From assembly GCF_015557435.1 (NCBI RefSeq), contig NZ_JADNOH010000027.1, forward strand, positions 1 through 47,170: DNA of 47,170 nt, given 5' to 3'. Position 1 is the first letter of the stretch. Each line of letters starts with the position of its first letter. The notes under the pieces were generated by a model that had not been told where the DNA came from, searched no databases, and saw only the letters and a list, made by a program, of their open reading frames with translations. Origin of the DNA: Collinsella aerofaciens (lineage in GTDB: Bacteria > Actinomycetota > Coriobacteriia > Coriobacteriales > Coriobacteriaceae). The translations under genes were made by a program, and so were the position numbers. Below, in pieces: positions 5,156 to 46,136 of this stretch.

Positions 5156-5246
5156 TGGCGGAGGAGGAGGGATTCGAACCCTCGTGACCTTATACAGGCC
5201 AAACGGTTTTCGAGACCGCCGCATTCAACCACTCTGCCACCCCTCC
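5156..5246 (-). tRNA. tRNA-Ser (anticodon CGA)
   Basis: This 91-nt gene has a class II variable arm. Acceptor GGAGGGG pairs with CTCCTCC with one G-T pair. The anticodon stem GCGGT/ACCGT encloses the loop CTCGAAA, giving anticodon CGA for codon UCG. The T-arm is GAGGG-TTCGAAT-CCCTC and CCA is encoded. It lies 48 bases downstream of a second serine tRNA with a terminator between them and no obvious promoter of its own, so it may depend on read-through. Confidence 0.93.
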
Positions 5247-5255
5247 GCGTGGGGT

Positions 5256-5286
5256 AAAAACAAAGCAGGCTCGAAGGCCTGCTTTG
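5256..5286 (-). terminator. Terminator between the two tRNA-Ser genes
   Basis: A perfect 10-bp stem (5261-5270 with 5277-5286) with loop TCGAAG is followed on the minus strand by five T (5256-5260). Confidence 0.75.
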
Positions 5287-5294
5287 GAATTAAC

Positions 5295-5385
5295 TGGCGG
5301 AGAGTCAGGGATTTGAACCCTGGAGACGCTTTTGACGCCTACACGATTTCCAATCGTGCTCCTTCGGCCACTCGGACAACTCTCC
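5295..5385 (-). tRNA. tRNA-Ser (anticodon GGA)
   Basis: This 91-nt class II tRNA begins GGAGAGTTG and ends with encoded CCA. The anticodon stem CACGA/TCGTG encloses TTGGAAA, giving anticodon GGA (codons UCC and UCU). It has a long variable arm and T-loop TTCAAAT. Its acceptor stem is nearly that of the neighbouring tRNA-Ser(CGA). Confidence 0.93.
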
Positions 5386-12019: not shown

Positions 12020-12715
12020 ATGGACGAGAAGAACGAAGAGCTCGTGGATGCGCAGATCGTCGAGGAGGACAGCCGCGTGTATGGGCACGCCGAGGGCGAG
12101 CCTGGCGGCGAGGTCGCTGACGAGCCGGTGCTGGTGCTGGGCGATGACGACCCGCACGATGCCGAGCTGCACGAGAAGATTCTTTCGGAGGAGTGCGCCT
12201 GGAAGGGCAAGATCCTCGACGTCCACCGTCTTGAGGTGGAGCTGCCCAACGGCCACCGCAGCGCCCGCGACATCATTCGTCATCCGGGTGCGGCGGCCGT
12301 GGTGGCGCTGACCGAGAGCGGCAAGATTGTGCTGGTGCGTCAGTACCGCACTGCCATCGACCGCGTAACAGTCGAGATTCCCGCCGGCAAGCTCGACCCG
12401 GGCGAGGATCCGCTTGATTGCGCCAAGCGTGAGCTGCACGAGGAGACGGGCTTTAGGGCCGGTCGCATTCGCTTTTTGACGTCGATTGTCACGACCTGCG
12501 GCTTCTGCGACGAGATCATTCATATCTACCTGGCTACCAAGCTCGAGTTCGACGCGCCCAACCCCGATGATGACGAGTTTGTCAACGTGGACCTGGTGCC
12601 GCTGCACGAGTTGATCGACGCCGTACTCGACGGCAAGATCGAAGACGCCAAGACCGTCGTGGGCGCCTTGGCCTGCGATAGCATCGCGCACCGCTTGGGC
12701 GGAGCCGAGCTCTAG
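12020..12715 (+). CDS. Nudix hydrolase, ADP-ribose pyrophosphatase type
   Basis: This 231-residue protein carries a complete Nudix box at residues 123-145 (G-x5-E-x7-REL-x-EE-x-G-F, here beginning GKLDPGEDP). The preceding RQYRTAIDRVTVEIPAG matches the ADP-ribose pyrophosphatase subgroup, which splits ADP-ribose into AMP and ribose 5-phosphate. The first 55 or so residues are an acidic extension not usual in the family. ATG 12020 is chosen because GAGAGGA lies nine bases upstream; an in-frame ATG at 12011 is too close to that site. It starts 21 bases after purD and is probably co-transcribed. Confidence 0.88.
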   Translation: MDEKNEELVDAQIVEEDSRVYGHAEGEPGGEVADEPVLVLGDDDPHDAELHEKILSEECAWKGKILDVHRLEVELPNGHRSARDIIRHPGAAAVVALTESGKIVLVRQYRTAIDRVTVEIPAGKLDPGEDPLDCAKRELHEETGFRAGRIRFLTSIVTTCGFCDEIIHIYLATKLEFDAPNPDDDEFVNVDLVPLHELIDAVLDGKIEDAKTVVGALACDSIAHRLGGAEL

Positions 12716-12862
12716 GTTACGCGGTTTTACCAAACCGCGTAACGAGTCGACGCTGCAAACGCCCCTAAGCGGCAATCTGCCTTTCAATCGTCGCTCGCGT
12801 ACCGAAGTACGCGTCGTTCCTCTTTCAAGGCACCTTGCTCGCTCAGGGACGTTTTCGCTGAC
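12716..12862 (-). repeat. Structured element copy A (candidate ncRNA or structured repeat)
   Basis: Copy A begins at the Nudix stop codon. Viewed on the plus strand it has a 12-bp hairpin (12716-12743), a conserved linker TCGACGCTGC, and an outer stem P1 (12758-12771 with 12840-12853). Then come GCAA/TTGC (12772-12775 with 12835-12838), P2 TGCCTT/AAGGCA (12778-12783 with 12827-12832) and P3 CGCGTAC/GTACGCG (12796-12802 with 12807-12813). On the minus strand the P3 loop is TTCG closed by C-G, a stable RNA tetraloop, and the two P1 mismatches become G-U pairs. The same architecture occurs at 42681-42828. No promoter was identified. Confidence 0.7.
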
Positions 12863-12962
12863 GCTGCCAGAACATCGGCGTTATGCTTGTTGGGACGCTT
12901 TGTTTTCAGCCTGACCGGTTCAACCGGATTTCTCACGCTATTTATTTCTCTTCGAGGATTGC

Positions 12963-26077: not shown

Positions 26078-26327
26078 GGCTTATTAAGCCCACCTTGCCG
26101 TTGACGCTTATTTTGCTGCCGCTGGGAGAATTCCGAACTTGGGTGCGCAAGTGCTCCCATATGTTGATATGACCTAGTAGGTGGCTATCTGGTTACTATC
26201 AGTTGGCCCCTTGGTAACGGGTGGCCCCCATTGTGCGGAATGTACCGAACATCTCCGTTTGATACGTTTTCCCATGCTGCCGGGGGGCGTCCTCGGCACC
26301 TCAGCATGTCGGAAGAAAGGAGACCAG

Positions 26328-29300
26328 ATGCGCAGGAATTCCATTTTTACGAAACGGTGGGTGAAGGGAAGCGCGGTCCTCGTTGCCACTGCAGCGACGC
26401 TCGTGTTTGCCAATCCCCAGCAGGCGATTGCCACGCCACTCAAGGGCGTCGACTCGGCGACCGTGTCCCAGTCTGCCTCGAATGTCGTCGACATCGATTT
26501 CGCTGACGGCATCAAGGGCCGTATTACGTTCCTCGAGGACGGTATTTTCCGTTATAACGTCGACCCCAAGGGTGAGTTTTCCGAGTACGCCACGCCGCGT
26601 AGTAAGTCCCACACGGCTAAGATCCAGGCTCAGCCCGATACCTCGGACACCTACAGCAAGCCGAGTGCGACGGTTGCCGACAAGGGCGACACTATCGAGA
26701 TCACCGGCGGAAAGGCGACCGTGATCCTGGACAAGGCGACTGGCAAGATGAGTATCAAGTCAGGCGACCGTGTCGTGGTTTCCGAGTCCGCGTCCCTCGA
26801 CCTTGATAAGAAGGGTACCGTCCAGACGCTCGCCAAGGAGAAGTCCGAGAACTTCTTTGGCGGCGGCACCCAGAACGGACGCTTCCTGCACACCAACCAG
26901 ACCATCGCCATCTCCAACACGAACAACTGGACCGATGGCGGCGTTGCCTCGCCCAACCCGTTTTATTGGACGAGTGACGGCTACGGCGTACTCCGAAACA
27001 CGTTTGCAGAGGGTTCCTACGACTTCGGTTCCACGGACTCATCGACGGTCACGACTTTGCACAGCGAGAATGAGTTTGATGCCTACTACTTCGTGGCGAC
27101 CAACGAGGGCGCTTCGAACGTGGCAACCGAGATGCTGCAGGACTACTACAAGGTGACCGGTAACCCGGTACTGCTGCCCGAGTACGGGTTCTACCTTGGT
27201 CATCTTAATGCCTATAACCGTGATGGCTGGTCAACGACCTCGGGTCAAAAGAAGTGGGAGACCAAGGGCAGCAAGTCCTCGAGCGAGAAGGGCGACGTTA
27301 AGTACGAGTCTGGCATGTCGACGGGCTACAAGCTCGACGGCACACTTGCGGCCGAGACGCTCAACGGTGAGGGCCCTACGGTTGATACCGAGAACATGAA
27401 AGCGACCGATTTCGACCGCCAGTTCTCTGCTCGTCAGGTTATCGATGACTACGAGGACAACGACATGCCGCTCGGCTGGTTCCTGCCGAACGACGGTTAC
27501 GGCGCCGGCTATGGCCAGAACGGTTACTACAAGACCGGCGGCGTCAACTCCGACGGAGCGAGCTCGGCCGACCGTCTTAACGCTGTGCGTGCCAATGTCG
27601 ACAACCTTAAGAAGTTCACCGAGTATGCCAACTCCAAGGGTGTGAGCACGGGCTTGTGGACCCAGTCCAACCTTGAGCCCGACAGCAACCCTGAGACCCC
27701 GTGGCATCTGCTTCGCGACTTCGACGCCGAGGTCAAGACGGGAGGCATCACTACCCTTAAGACCGACGTTGCCTGGGTTGGATCTGGCTACTCCTTTGGT
27801 CTTAATGGCATCAAGACAGCTTATGACACGGTGACGACCGGCGCTAACAAGCGCCCCAACATCATCACGCTCGATGGTTGGGCCGGCACGCAGCGCTTTG
27901 GTGGCATTTGGACCGGCGACCAGTATGGCGGTAACTGGGAGTACATTCGCTTCCATATCCCCACGTATATCGGTCAGAGTCTTTCGGGCAACCCCAACAT
28001 CGGCTCCGACATGGATGGCATCTTTGGCGGCGACCCCATCATCTCTGCGCGTGACTACCAGTGGAAGACGTTCACGCCCTCTATGCTTGACATGGACGGT
28101 TGGGGCACCTACCGTAAATCGCCCATGACGCACGGCGATCCCTACACAGGCATCTCGCGCTTCTACCTCAAGCTCAAGGCGCAGCTCATGCCCTATATCT
28201 ACACGAGCGCGGCCTCGGCGGCCAACATCGACACGGGTAACGGCGATGCCGGCCTGCCCATGATCCGCGCCATGCTGCTTTCCGACAACTCCGAGTACGC
28301 CGCAAGCACTTCGACGCAGTACCAGTATATGTTCGGTGAGAACTTCCTAGTGGCACCGGTGTATCAGGATACCCAGGCAGACGAGAACGGCAACGACATT
28401 CGCAATGGGATTTACCTCCCCAACTACGGCACCGACGAGAATCCCACCATCTGGATCGATTACTTCTCGGGTAAGCAGTATCGCGGCGGCCAGGTTCTCA
28501 ACAACTACGAGGCTCCGCTTTGGAAGCTGCCGCTGTTTGTGAAGGCCAACGCTATCGTGCCGATGTACGCCGAGAACAACAACCCCGAGGCCGTGAGCGA
28601 CACCAACACCAAGGGTACCGACCGCAGCCAGCGTATCGTCGAGTTCTTCGCCACCGAGGGCGACGGCACCTTTACGCAGTACGAGGACGACGGCTCCTCC
28701 ATCGAGAACAACACGACTGAGGACGATTCCTACGGCACGATCGACAATATCTCCTACGGTGAGCATGTGAGCACCGTCTACAGCTCCAAGGCCGCAGGCG
28801 GCACCGCGACCTTTACCGCCGAGGCCTCGCAGGGCGGCTACAACGGCTACGACTCCAACCGCACCACGACCTTCGTGGCCAATGTGTCCGCCAAGCCCAC
28901 GAGCGTTGTCGCCAAGAACGGCGGATCCGCACTCAACGTGGTTGAGGTCGACTCGCAGGAGACCTTTGACGCCGCGACCCCCGAGGCCGGCCAGGCGGTC
29001 TACTTCTACAGCGAGACCCCCAACCTCAACCACTACGGCAGCGATGCGGACGGCACCGAGGCCGAGCAGGGCGAGAGCTTCAACAACACCAAGATCACCA
29101 CGAACCCCAAGGTCTACGTCAAGTTCGCGAAGACCGATGTTGCTGCAGCGGCGCAGACGCTTGAGCTGGGCGGTTTCGTGAACGCCGACGCCACGCTCAC
29201 AGCCGATCGCCTCAACGAGAACCTCTCCGCACCCACGAACCTTGCTGCCCCCGAGGACGCCACGACCCCAACGAGCATCAAGCTCACCTGGGGAAAGGTC

Positions 29301-32300
29301 GATGGTGCTACCTCCTACGACCTTAAGGTCGACGGCACTGTGTTTGCCGTGGGTGATGCGGCCGAGTTCACGCACACCGACCTCGCCTACAATAGCAAGC
29401 ACACCTACCAGATTCGTTCGCGCAACGCCGAAGGTTACTCCGCCTGGAGCGATGTGCTCGAGGCGAACTCCGCACTCGATCCGTGGCGGAACGTCCCCGA
29501 CGCCGAGGAAATCACCTGGGAGGGCTCACTTTACGGCAGCCATAAGGCCGAGCTCGCCTTCGACCATGAGTTCCAGTCGGGCGACGGCGGTTTCCACTCC
29601 GGTGGCAACGATCTGGGCAAGGCGCTTACCGTTGACTATGGACGCGCTTACAAGCTCGATAAGCTCGAGTACTATCCGCGCGATGACGCCGGCAACGGCA
29701 CCGTGACCAAGATGCGTGTTGAGACGAGTCTCGATGGCGTCCACTGGACGAGCCAGGAGGTCGATTGGGCACGTTCCGCTGATTGTAAGACGGTAGCGTT
29801 TGACGGCACCGTGGCCGCCCGTTACGTGCGCATGACACCGCTCGCCTCGGTCGGCAATTTCTTCTCCGCGTCCGAGATTGCCATCTACAAGACCGACGGC
29901 ACGGATGGCTTCGCCGTGGGCTCCAACCTCAACAAGGCCACGATCTCCGACGGAGACTACTCCAACATGAAGAACTATCTGGGCCTCGAGAATCGCGAGC
30001 CCGATACCCCGACGTTCGGTTCGCAGATCCGCGACCACTTCGCCGACCTCAACGATAACGGCGTTTACGACGTCTACGATTACTCGTTCACCATGGCGGG
30101 TCTTGACGGCGGCACTAAACAAAAGGGCAAGGTCGCAGGTTCGCTCGCGGTGATTCCGAGCAAGACCGAGGTCGAGGCCGGTGATGAGATCACCGTTGAT
30201 GTCTATGCGGCCGACGCCAAGAACGTCAACGCCCTGGGCGCCCTCGTCAACTTCAAGAGCGACCAGTTCGAGTTTGTGTCCGAGAGCATCGCGCAGGACG
30301 GCTCGACTGCCGGCATGGAGAACCTGTCTCGCGAGAAGGTCCAGTTCGTGGACGGAACGCAGACTATCAATCTCGCCTTTGCCAACCGCGGCGATGGCAA
30401 GCTCTACAACGGTACTGGCGCGGTGGCGAGTTTCAAGCTCAAGGCCAAGACCGCCGGAAAGGTCGAACTGCCCTCGACATCTTGGCTTATCGGCCCGGCA
30501 TGCGACGCACTTGAGTTTGCGAGCGACGGCACGGTGACGATGCCGGACGTTCCTCAGCCAACGGTCGCCGAGTACGCCCAGGATGCCTTCAACATCACGA
30601 TGACCAACGATGAGCTCACGACCGACGACGGGACCAACGTCGAGAAACTTATCCAGCAGAAGAGCTATAACGCGCTGTTCGATAATAACGAGGGCGACAA
30701 CGGCTTTGAGTTCCTGTGGAACTGGAGTGGCAACTGGGACAGCGAGGGTAAGCTACCGAGTTACGTGAAGCTTCCCACCACGATGACATTCGCATTTAAG
30801 ACGCCGTCGAAACTCGATAGCGTCGAGGTCGTTAACCGCAACGGCGGCAACGGAACCGTACAGAAGATCAAGGCCGTCGTGACGTTCGAGGATGGCTCGA
30901 TCCAAGAGTTCGCGGGCGGGGAGTACGATTCCTTCCTGGCTCGCTACGCCTTTGACCTCTCTGCCGAGAACAAGGGCAAGAAGGTGACTAAGGTCGAGGT
31001 CACGCCGCTTGAGGCATCGGGTGACCAGATGCTCACACTGCGTGAGGTCAACTTCAACTACACGCAGGGTGTCGAGGCCATCGAGGGTGTCGAGCTAGGC
31101 AAGAACCAGACCGAGTTCTTTGAAGGCGACATTACGCCCGTCGACGCCAAGGCTACGCCTGAGAGCGCTGGCTACCCCTATGTGACGGTCGAGAGCTCCG
31201 ACCCCTCTGTGGTAAGCGTCTCCGCTGTTCAGGCTGGCGATAGCGTGAGCTACTACCTGCGTGCCAACAAGGCCGGCAAGGCAAAGATCACGGTGGCGTC
31301 GGTACTCGACCCCTCCAAGACCGCATCCTATGAGGTCGAGGTCAAGGCTGGTGTCGATACCTCTGCGCTCGTGGCAGCGCTTTCCAAGGCCGCGGGCTAC
31401 AGCGAGTCCGTCTACACCAAGGATTCCTATGCAGCTCTCACCACTGCGGTCGAGGCGGCTCGGAAGCTCCTCGACAGCGGCCAGGGCAGCTATAGCAAGA
31501 AGGATGTCGCAGACGCCACTGCCAAGATCGAGAAGGCAATCGACGGCCTCAAGATGCGCCCTGTCGATGAGAAGATCCTCATCAACACGCCCGAGAACCG
31601 CAAGAACGTCAAGGTGGCCGACTTCTCGAGTGAGGCCGACTACGAGGGCAGCAACGCCGTCAACGCTCTCGACGGCGACGAGCGGACGCTTTGGCACAGC
31701 GACTGGGCCCATGGGACCGGTATGCCCCAGTATCTGAGTGTCGACCTGGGCCGCGACTACGATCTCACCGACGTTACATTCCTGCCGCGCCAGGACGGCG
31801 GCACTAACGGCGATATCTTCGAGGCCGAGATACTGGTCTCCGACACTGCCGACGGTTATGAGATGGGCACCGCCGCGTCGATGGGTACGTTCGCCTTCGA
31901 CAACGACGGCCGCGTGCTCACCGACCGTGGCGACTGGAAGCAGATGAGCTTTGGCGCCGCGCGCGGTCGCTACGTGACCGTCAAGGTGATTCACGCCGGC
32001 GGTGGCGACGTTGATGCCTACTGCAGCATGGCGGAGCTCAAGTTCTACGGTACGGCCGTCCCCGATCCGGTGGCGAAGGATGATCTCGCTACCGCGATCG
32101 AAAAGGTTGATGCCGAGGTTGCTGCCGGCGACCTCAAGGCCGGTGACTACACCGAGGCCTCCTGGACGGCGCTCGAGAACGCCCTGGCGAGCGCCCGCGC
32201 CATCTTGAGCGATGAGGACGCCACGCAGGACGAGGTCGACCAGGCGCTCAGGGCGCTCGAGAGCGCCCGCGGCGCGCTCGAGAAGACCCCGGTGGTCCCG

Positions 32301-32741
32301 GTCGAGAATCCGACTAAGAAGCAGCTCAAGGCCCTGGTCAAGCAGGCGAAGGAGACTGACACCAGGGGCAAGACGGACGAGTCTGTCAAGGCCCTGACGG
32401 ATGCCATTACCTACGCCGAGGACGTCTTGGGTGATGAGAATGCTTCCGACACCCAGCTCCAGGCGGCCTATGACCAGCTCAAGCTGGCCATTGAGAGCCT
32501 CAGGGATGCCGACTCCGGCAACCAGGGCGGCTCGGGCAACCAGGGTTCCGGCAATGGCTCGAACGGCGGCAACCAGGCGGGCAAGCCCGCAGGCGACAAG
32601 GCCCAGGGCAGCAAGAAGAACGGTTCGGCGATCCCCAATACCGGCGACCAGACGGCGGCGACCGTCGTGACCGTCGGTGGTCTCGGCGCCATCATCGCCG
32701 CGATCGGCGCTTTCTTCCATCGTCGCAGCAAGGCCAAGTAG
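26328..32741 (+). CDS. Wall-anchored multidomain GH31 glycosidase
   Basis: The product has 2137 residues: a signal peptide (1-37) and a GH31 catalytic region (about 90-850) with likely nucleophile Asp480 in LKTDVAW and likely acid/base Asp531 in GIWTGD. An FN3 domain follows (about 968-1049), then an F5/8-type CBM32-like domain (1049-1195), a dockerin-like DLNDNGVYDVYDY segment, a cohesin-like domain (1268-1408), a second discoidin-like region (1421-1580) and an Ig-like domain. FIVAR repeats (about 1677-1745, 1915-1990, 1995-2060) surround another CBM32-like domain (1750-1910). A Gly/Asn linker leads to sorting signal IPNTG (2102-2106). GAAAGGAG fixes ATG 26328. By family it cleaves alpha-glycosides; the domain set suggests host mucin glycans, possibly alpha-GalNAc, which is unproven. 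Confidence 0.92.
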   Translation: MRRNSIFTKRWVKGSAVLVATAATLVFANPQQAIATPLKGVDSATVSQSASNVVDIDFADGIKGRITFLEDGIFRYNVDPKGEFSEYATPRSKSHTAKIQAQPDTSDTYSKPSATVADKGDTIEITGGKATVILDKATGKMSIKSGDRVVVSESASLDLDKKGTVQTLAKEKSENFFGGGTQNGRFLHTNQTIAISNTNNWTDGGVASPNPFYWTSDGYGVLRNTFAEGSYDFGSTDSSTVTTLHSENEFDAYYFVATNEGASNVATEMLQDYYKVTGNPVLLPEYGFYLGHLNAYNRDGWSTTSGQKKWETKGSKSSSEKGDVKYESGMSTGYKLDGTLAAETLNGEGPTVDTENMKATDFDRQFSARQVIDDYEDNDMPLGWFLPNDGYGAGYGQNGYYKTGGVNSDGASSADRLNAVRANVDNLKKFTEYANSKGVSTGLWTQSNLEPDSNPETPWHLLRDFDAEVKTGGITTLKTDVAWVGSGYSFGLNGIKTAYDTVTTGANKRPNIITLDGWAGTQRFGGIWTGDQYGGNWEYIRFHIPTYIGQSLSGNPNIGSDMDGIFGGDPIISARDYQWKTFTPSMLDMDGWGTYRKSPMTHGDPYTGISRFYLKLKAQLMPYIYTSAASAANIDTGNGDAGLPMIRAMLLSDNSEYAASTSTQYQYMFGENFLVAPVYQDTQADENGNDIRNGIYLPNYGTDENPTIWIDYFSGKQYRGGQVLNNYEAPLWKLPLFVKANAIVPMYAENNNPEAVSDTNTKGTDRSQRIVEFFATEGDGTFTQYEDDGSSIENNTTEDDSYGTIDNISYGEHVSTVYSSKAAGGTATFTAEASQGGYNGYDSNRTTTFVANVSAKPTSVVAKNGGSALNVVEVDSQETFDAATPEAGQAVYFYSETPNLNHYGSDADGTEAEQGESFNNTKITTNPKVYVKFAKTDVAAAAQTLELGGFVNADATLTADRLNENLSAPTNLAAPEDATTPTSIKLTWGKVDGATSYDLKVDGTVFAVGDAAEFTHTDLAYNSKHTYQIRSRNAEGYSAWSDVLEANSALDPWRNVPDAEEITWEGSLYGSHKAELAFDHEFQSGDGGFHSGGNDLGKALTVDYGRAYKLDKLEYYPRDDAGNGTVTKMRVETSLDGVHWTSQEVDWARSADCKTVAFDGTVAARYVRMTPLASVGNFFSASEIAIYKTDGTDGFAVGSNLNKATISDGDYSNMKNYLGLENREPDTPTFGSQIRDHFADLNDNGVYDVYDYSFTMAGLDGGTKQKGKVAGSLAVIPSKTEVEAGDEITVDVYAADAKNVNALGALVNFKSDQFEFVSESIAQDGSTAGMENLSREKVQFVDGTQTINLAFANRGDGKLYNGTGAVASFKLKAKTAGKVELPSTSWLIGPACDALEFASDGTVTMPDVPQPTVAEYAQDAFNITMTNDELTTDDGTNVEKLIQQKSYNALFDNNEGDNGFEFLWNWSGNWDSEGKLPSYVKLPTTMTFAFKTPSKLDSVEVVNRNGGNGTVQKIKAVVTFEDGSIQEFAGGEYDSFLARYAFDLSAENKGKKVTKVEVTPLEASGDQMLTLREVNFNYTQGVEAIEGVELGKNQTEFFEGDITPVDAKATPESAGYPYVTVESSDPSVVSVSAVQAGDSVSYYLRANKAGKAKITVASVLDPSKTASYEVEVKAGVDTSALVAALSKAAGYSESVYTKDSYAALTTAVEAARKLLDSGQGSYSKKDVADATAKIEKAIDGLKMRPVDEKILINTPENRKNVKVADFSSEADYEGSNAVNALDGDERTLWHSDWAHGTGMPQYLSVDLGRDYDLTDVTFLPRQDGGTNGDIFEAEILVSDTADGYEMGTAASMGTFAFDNDGRVLTDRGDWKQMSFGAARGRYVTVKVIHAGGGDVDAYCSMAELKFYGTAVPDPVAKDDLATAIEKVDAEVAAGDLKAGDYTEASWTALENALASARAILSDEDATQDEVDQALRALESARGALEKTPVVPVENPTKKQLKALVKQAKETDTRGKTDESVKALTDAITYAEDVLGDENASDTQLQAAYDQLKLAIESLRDADSGNQGGSGNQGSGNGSNGGNQAGKPAGDKAQGSKKNGSAIPNTGDQTAATVVTVGGLGAIIAAIGAFFHRRSKAK

Positions 32742-42233: not shown

Positions 42234-42677
42234 ATGACCAACGAAGAGCTGCAGAAGGAAATGATCGCGGCCATGAAGGCCAAGGACAAGGTTCGCCTGT
42301 CCATCATTCGCCAGGTTAAGGCCGAGGTGAAGAATATCGAGGTCAACGAGCGCCGCGATGTGACCGAGGAAGACGTCAACAGCATGATCAAGCGTCTGAT
42401 CAAGCAGACGAGCGAGACGCTGGAGATGTCCATCAAGGCCGGCACCGACCAAGAGCGTACCGACAACCTGACCGAGCAGGTCAAGATTCTGGAGAGCCTT
42501 CTGCCCGCGCAGGTTTCGGGCGAGGAGCTCGAGGCCCTGATCGAGCAGCTCATCGCCGAGCTGGGCGCCACGTCCAAGAAGCAGATGGGCCAGGTTATGG
42601 GTGCACTCGGCAAGGCCACTGGCGGCAACTTCGATAAGCCGGCCGCGGCAAAGATCGTCGGCGCAAAATTGGCGTAA
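42234..42677 (+). CDS. GatB/YqeY-domain protein
   Basis: The 147-residue protein matches the YqeY family: MTNEELQKEMIAAMKAKDK at the start, LSIIRQVKAEVKNIEV, a mid section with EDVNSMIKRLIKQ, and the tail KKQMGQVMGALGKATGGNFD. This domain also ends the GatB subunit of the amidotransferase that makes Gln-tRNA, where it contacts tRNA; the role of stand-alone YqeY proteins is not settled. AGAGAGGA precedes the ATG. Structured element B starts three bases after its stop codon. Confidence 0.92.
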   Translation: MTNEELQKEMIAAMKAKDKVRLSIIRQVKAEVKNIEVNERRDVTEEDVNSMIKRLIKQTSETLEMSIKAGTDQERTDNLTEQVKILESLLPAQVSGEELEALIEQLIAELGATSKKQMGQVMGALGKATGGNFDKPAAAKIVGAKLA

Positions 42678-42680
42678 TTT

Positions 42681-42828
42681 GTTAAGCGGTTTTATCAAAC
42701 CGCGTAACGGCTCGACGCTGCAAACCCGTACACACGGCAATCTGACGTTCAATTTCAAGGGCGCGACCATAAGGTCTGCGCCCTTTCATTTCACGTCACC
42801 TTGCTCGCGTGTACGGGTTTTCGCTGAC
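42681..42828 (-). repeat. Structured element copy B (candidate ncRNA or structured repeat)
   Basis: It has the same architecture as 12716-12862. The edge hairpin is 42681-42708 with one mismatch, and P1 is 42722-42736 with 42806-42820. GCAA/TTGC is 42737-42740 with 42801-42804, P2 TGACGT/ACGTCA is 42743-42748 with 42793-42798, and P3 is 42757-42768 with 42773-42785 (one bulge). P1, P2 and P3 sequences differ from copy A while pairing is kept; the internal-loop words GCAATC and CCTTGCT are identical. The single P1 mismatch is A-C on plus and G-U on minus. Confidence 0.7.
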
Positions 42829-42901
42829 TTATGCTCAACAAGGGCGGTTAGATTATTTTTGGGTCTGATGAAGGGCGCCTCCCCTGGCTGGTTATTGGGC
42901 G

Positions 42902-42968
42902 CTCATTGGGGACAGACTTAAATGAGTGCCCAATGAGCAGATACTCATTTAAGTCTGTCCCCAATGAG
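42902..42968. repeat. Palindrome doublet with 26-bp perfect arms
   Basis: Bases 42902-42927 and 42943-42968 are perfect reverse complements around a 15-nt centre. Each arm is itself a small hairpin (ACTCATT..AATGAGT type) enclosing a GGGGACAG or CTGTCCCC core, so this looks like two family members in head-to-head orientation. The centre also carries CCCAATGAG, which can pair with the left edge. Confidence 0.88.
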
Positions 42969-46105: not shown

Positions 46106-46136
46106 ATGTGGCAAAGGGACAGTCCCTTTGTCACAT
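46106..46136. repeat. Compact GGGACAGTCCC palindrome
   Basis: CAAAGGGAC and GTCCCTTTG flank a single A; ATGTG and CACAT extend the stem past one G-T pair. It lies between the permease stop and the ribosome site of the next gene. Confidence 0.85.

Follow-up and report, generated by a model that had tools for sequence, protein, structure and literature searches.

Two structured elements in a 47,170-nucleotide stretch of Collinsella aerofaciens DNA (contig NZ_JADNOH010000027.1, hereafter the window), copy A at 12716-12862 and copy B at 42681-42828, are probably members of a large family of mobile palindromic repeats, non-autonomous and located at the 3' ends of transcription units, as judged from comparison of sequences. 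In an earlier note the pair had been described as a two-copy element. This was wrong: the genome of the window holds 28 places found by BLAST and 44 matches to a covariance model. The extents and the order of parts given there for both copies were re-read in the window and agree (Table 1).

Structure and distribution of the element

The order of parts in copy B is the same as in copy A. In other copies the sequence of the edge hairpin varies and its palindromic nature is kept. The tail of copy A is one among several recurrent tails. Thirteen copies were used to build a covariance model, R1, which matched the minus strand at both places (12744-12862, 110 bits, in copy A; 42709-42828, 134 bits, in copy B). 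Predicted RNA folds were more stable on the minus than on the plus strand for copy A (-78.6 and -64.9 kcal/mol) and copy B (-82.9 and -72.3 kcal/mol). The z-scores of A and B were -8.3 and -10.8 on minus and -6.5 and -10.4 on plus, with none of 200 shuffles equally stable. With DNA folding parameters the minus strand was again the more stable.

Table 1. Parts of the two copies and other features of the window
Feature	Positions	Strand	Basis
Copy A edge hairpin, GTTACGCGGTTT-TACC-AAACCGCGTAAC	12716..12743	+	sequence, fold, Pfam (upstream gene)
Copy A conserved box TCGACGCTGC, between edge and main hairpins	12747..12756	+	comparison of copies
Copy A main hairpin (P1, bulge, GCAA/TTGC, 2x2 loop, P2, conserved loop, P3)	12757..12854	-	fold; model match
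Copy A P1 (plus-strand layout)	12757-12771/12840-12854		
Copy A one-base bulge (plus-strand layout)	12839		
Copy A GCAA/TTGC, followed by the 2x2 internal loop (plus-strand layout)	12772-12775/12835-12838		
Copy A P2 (plus-strand layout)	12778-12783/12827-12832		
Copy A P3 (plus-strand layout)	12796-12802/12807-12813		
Copy A right box TCGCTGAC (12855-12862) and tail GCTGCCAGAACATCGGCGTT	12855..12883	+	sequence comparison
Copy B edge hairpin, GTTAAGCGGTTT-TATC-AAACCGCGTAAC	42681..42708	+	sequence, fold, Pfam (upstream gene)
Copy B conserved box TCGACGCTGC	42712..42721	+	sequence comparison
Copy B main hairpin: P1 AAACCCGTACACACG with CGCGTGTACGGGTTT, P2 TGACGT/ACGTCA, different P3	42722..42820	-	fold; model match
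Copy B right box TCGCTGAC and tail TTATGCTCAAC (second recurrent tail)	42821..42839	+	sequence comparison
Second repeat, GGGGACAGACTTAAATGAGT, as an inverted pair immediately downstream of copy B	42908-42962		
Further REP-like palindrome GGGACAGTCCCTTTGTCAC; related-looking sequence near the window start	46108-46134		
Predicted glycoside hydrolase family 31 protein, 2186 aa, with F5/8 type C, FIVAR and Ig-like domains	26181-32741		
Tandem tRNA-Ser pair, anticodons CGA and GGA	5156-5385	-	

About 20 of the 44 R1 matches in the genome of the window are strong and full-length, the others being shorter relatives, partial copies and opposite-strand matches of the same copies. Across 43 Collinsella genomes, R1 matches were found in 38, with 26-46 each in about 22 close relatives within the Collinsella aerofaciens group and 0-14 in the others. 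A pattern scan of named genomes returned almost exclusively Collinsella, chiefly C. aerofaciens. When the search was carried out order-wide (197 genomes), matches at E<=1e-6 were obtained in 74 genomes of 27 genera. True copies read on the wrong strand score 40-47 bits through hairpin shape alone; many of the matches from other genera lie higher, at 60-99 bits, so these matches probably share the core of the element. A contig labelled 'Coriobacteriaceae bacterium' (L207) carries a full copy with the same loops and another P1 sequence. Shorter relatives, with the same P2/P3 core and other outer stems (e.g. GCTTTCCCAGGTGCC..GGCACCTGGGAAAGC), were noted at L013, L016-L020, L049-L057 and L207; their internal loop is turned round, and they too often lie 3' of stop codons.

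The earlier note had left room for a previously named Collinsella RNA motif. Comparison with Rfam 15, the Collinsella-1 motif included, excludes a known family at the sensitivity of Rfam: even at E<=10 no family matched the window copies, except for a single hit at chance level, to a human lncRNA model, that lies outside the hairpins. The Collinsella-1 motif resembles the element in its Collinsella host and in being structured. For L034, RNase P alone was matched in Rfam. No match to the element was seen in the phage collection and viral contigs searched, and the sole match in the plasmid collection was a C. aerofaciens replicon of 899,693 bases, at 8 places. A targeted search of the open-access literature returned no description of the element in Collinsella.

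Gene ends and their terminators

The proposed insertion after stop codons holds across the family, as measured by ORF distances in 138 non-redundant copies, 104 of which have a recognisable edge hairpin. A sense-ORF stop codon lies within 70 nt of 96 of these 104, and 97 of 112 stop-to-hairpin distances fall between -4 and +7 nt. The distances cluster at -1 to +7 nt (about nine-tenths of the hairpin-bearing copies), the commonest being -1, at which the first G of the hairpin finishes a TAG codon. The edge hairpin faces the gene. In copy A it begins right after the TAG stop (12713-12715) of a NUDIX-domain gene, and in copy B it lies 3 nt past the TAA stop of a YqeY-like gene ending at 42677. 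The upstream genes are ordinary and unrelated; elsewhere they include those for release factor 1, DAHP synthase, QueA, PfkB and a GntR regulator. In the complete genome G002, 25 of 30 element matches have gene-sense on the presumed leading strand, as called with origin and terminus from GC skew only, against 63% of genes.

The element is also found behind a gene for a stable RNA. At rnpB it begins 2 nt past the Rfam end of RNase P RNA. Of 21 genomes of the aerofaciens group, 19 have it there, with stems of two quite distinct versions. The two element-free genomes have TTTTTGTT instead, and tandem arrangements of both stem versions are also seen.

Comparison of orthologous sites supported one half of the interpretation proposed earlier, that of a structured mobile repeat. 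The element is short, non-coding, dispersed and present or absent at orthologous sites, as expected of MITE-type elements. At locus A, copy A is present in 5 genomes; about 9 others have in its place a short spacer with a terminator-type hairpin (CCCTGGGACAAG..CTTTGTCCCAGGG), and about 7 carry an independent reverse copy whose edge hairpin lies beside the start codon of the next gene. At locus B, the element is present in 8 and absent from 14 of the close relatives read, and the empty sites carry GGGGCGTGACC..GGTCGCGCCCCTTTTT. Two genomes retain both the element and the old terminator at this locus, and several element-bearing ones are without the terminator. Since the terminator survived in two element-bearing genomes and is gone in others, its loss came after the insertion. 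Further empty sites of G002 show the same exchange of terminator for element; an ordinary intrinsic terminator is usual at empty orthologous sites, and element-bearing sites usually have none. Within G002, a canonical terminator was scored at 298 of the 862 gene ends that lack the element and at 2 of the 20 that carry it (p=0.029, Fisher test), a contrast that rests on only 20 element-bearing ends and on a home-made terminator scan and gene calls. Neither a target-site duplication nor a clean empty-site boundary was seen in the comparisons of empty and filled sites. Insertions are often accompanied by loss of adjoining sequence, and some copies are remnants of internal deletion.

These data bear on another explanation, namely a purely selfish repeat with no role at gene ends, which targets or tolerates 3' ends and whose neighbouring terminators are lost by insertion-associated deletion or by drift. 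The presence/absence polymorphism, the sequence loss beside insertions, the deletion remnants and the unrelated functions of the upstream housekeeping genes are all consistent with it. We nevertheless consider it rather unlikely, because two genomes still had the terminator at locus B after the insertion and others lost it later, and because the rnpB copy has been kept, with wholly different stems, in 19 of the 21 genomes.

For a repeat that does have a role at gene ends, the RNA of the upstream gene, whose transcript is the plus strand, would have as its 3' end the edge hairpin followed by the long main hairpin. The position of the GC-rich hairpin fits a canonical intrinsic terminator, but a conserved U-tract is absent from the plus strand: TTTT follows P1 only in the AAA-footed classes, and the GCGGG class is without it. 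A classical intrinsic terminator is therefore unlikely. A structure that pauses the polymerase or blocks exonucleases at the 3' end, perhaps after Rho, fits better. The hairpins may bring the polymerase to a stop or a pause, or may shield the RNA from 3' exonucleases once Rho has ended transcription; by taking over the 3'-end role in this way, the element would render the original terminator dispensable, so that it could be lost. The element thus resembles intrinsic terminators in its GC-rich hairpin and its location at the 3' ends of genes and of rnpB, where it takes their place, but is far longer, forms a multi-copy sequence family, is present or absent between relatives and has no conserved U-tract.

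Stem covariation and the question of strand

That the family is structured, with real covariation in its stems, was borne out by a test on 84 distinct copies. Standard pairs occupy 96.1% of cells, and both sides change in 27 of 35 pairs. The covariation score was 0.447, compared with 0.129 for shuffles (none of 500 reaching the real value) and at most 0.093 for slid structures. P1 falls into classes such as AAACGCCCCTAAGCG, AAGCCCGCCAGAGCG, GAACCCGTCAGCGCG and GCGGGCCGCATTTGG, each with its own partner. The conserved unpaired positions, in the minus reading, are the loop AAGG/AGAT and the junction TGAAAG/ATTGA. As read from the sequence, these loops can form tandem G.A/A.G pairs on the minus strand; on the plus strand they are pyrimidine mismatches only. 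At L008/L037 the inner loop has been turned into a perfect palindrome, a change more suggestive of a DNA palindrome corrected from a template than of compensation in single steps.

The covariation test does not discriminate RNA from DNA. Covariation separates subfamilies of the repeat, and folded single-stranded DNA or template-switch correction of palindromes could equally be its cause. Covariation among the copies of one genome alone is no proof of a functional RNA.

The earlier note had taken the P1 mismatches, A-C on plus and G-U on minus, as strong evidence for selection on a minus-strand RNA. The detail is correct in copies A and B, and a trend toward the minus strand remains; the strength claimed for it was not established. 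As a proof of strand the bias failed, since three out of three in two copies fell, among 128 copies, to 26 distinct events with G-U on minus against 14 of the opposite kind (p=0.08). This skew is a weak trend, not a proof, and holds for folded single-stranded DNA as much as for RNA. The conserved loops also favour the minus strand. The view that each copy encodes a minus-strand antisense ncRNA of about 120-150 nt, with its fold under selection, could draw on the stem covariation, the better fold on minus, the purine-rich conserved loops with their tandem G.A pairs and the direction of the mismatch skew. The skew is not significant, however, the copies come and go among genomes and decay by internal deletion, and their position and orientation are tied to the upstream stop codon as those of a plus-strand 3' UTR element would be. 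A minus-strand ncRNA is quite improbable on this evidence.

Exchange, mobilisation and related repeats

A total of 188 distinct copies fell into 53 gene-end slots, 35 of which were seen more than once. Among these 35, more than one P1 class was present in 20, more than one edge type in 20 and more than one tail type in 22. Of 454 pairs of copies sharing a slot, 67 had bodies less than 75% identical, no more alike than copies taken from separate slots (median 77%), although the upstream coding sequence was about 96% identical in same-slot comparisons. As read from these alignments, different versions of the element have replaced one another at the same gene ends.

Such exchange could point to a recombination site made of folded DNA, similar in principle to integron attC: a recombinase would read one folded strand by its conserved extrahelical base and its internal loops, and cassettes would be traded at particular gene ends. 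Variable stems with a conserved bulge, internal loop and junction would suit a site of this kind, as would the different versions within one slot and the tandem versions with later deletion at rnpB. Yet the attC R-boxes (RYYYAAC / GTTRRRY) were not seen on inspection by eye, and homologous gene conversion through the conserved boxes would explain the exchange too. We consider an attC-like site very unlikely. It is also decidedly unlikely that Coriobacteriales possess exchangeable 3'-end cassettes, that is, folded-strand elements that a dedicated recombinase or transposase exchanges at fixed gene ends and that act as the terminators of those genes. For the mobile repeats favoured here, spread may occur as a folded single strand through a trans-acting enzyme, or by conversion between copies. 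The folded strand would more likely be the minus strand, whose purine-purine loops are conserved, and a requirement for folding would maintain the complementarity of the stems despite drift of their sequence.

No autonomous partner was recognised at the places inspected. The flanks of both Y1_Tnp genes of G002 were without element copies, and a RAYT was rejected as the mobiliser, the inspected gene being flanked by another repeat, ACTCATTGGGGACAGACTT. A reverse transcriptase (PF00078) is present in only 12 of 43 genomes and is absent from element-rich ones such as G002, and hence is not a general driver. An autonomous version was sought through the recurrent tail 'ATGACCCAATCC', which proved to be an insertion of an IS110-family element into the repeat and not its source. 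This element (PF02371, PF01548) forms the tail in 11 slots, at an identical insertion point, GACAG^CGAAAGC, at the P1 foot. IS110 at the P1 foot in L159, L157, L170, L192 and others is a clear case of a targeted insertion sequence. IS elements insert into REP-type repeats as well. The second repeat downstream of copy B, GGGGACAGACTTAAATGAGT, is also found flanking a RAYT (Y1 transposase) gene of the relative G002, close to 760 kb, and for this reason is probably the RAYT-cognate REP of this group.

REP, BIME and REPIN sequences are likewise dispersed intergenic palindromes, often just past stop codons (PMC3733652, PMC12306157), and roles in termination, mRNA stability and translation have been proposed for REP-type repeats (PMC3733652, PMC12306157). 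REP units measure 20-40 bp, whereas the Collinsella unit of about 150 bp comprises an edge hairpin and a multi-stem hairpin with conserved non-Watson-Crick loops. Most of its copies lie <=7 nt from a stop codon, unlike E. coli REPs, of which about 11% lie within 15 nt (PMC12306157). The element is not a 20-40 bp palindrome with an unpaired GTAG or CGTC tag; a CGTC string occurs inside the GCAGCGTCGA box, yet it is not the tag of a single short REP. Nor do copies flank a cognate RAYT gene in G002. By these two features the element is not a RAYT-REP member, and by analogy it would work like the REP/ERIC-type 3' UTR repeats. ERIC/RU-1 and other enterobacterial MITE-like repeats (PMC2759123) are 127-168 bp long with TA duplications reported, and are similarly small, dispersed, non-coding and non-autonomous, with stem-loops. 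The Collinsella stems differ in being highly variable yet complementary, the TA duplication was not seen, and no sequence relation is expected. Terminator replacement and slot exchange are not reported for such repeats in the passages of PMC2759123 consulted.

For studies of covariation the family is a deep data set in which non-Watson-Crick loops are conserved, and its many filled and empty sites offer a route to trace a mobilising enzyme. If the reading given here is true, housekeeping genes in a major genus of the human gut, that for RNase P RNA included, have time and again had their end signals taken over by a mobile repeat, and this would constitute a natural experiment on terminator replacement.
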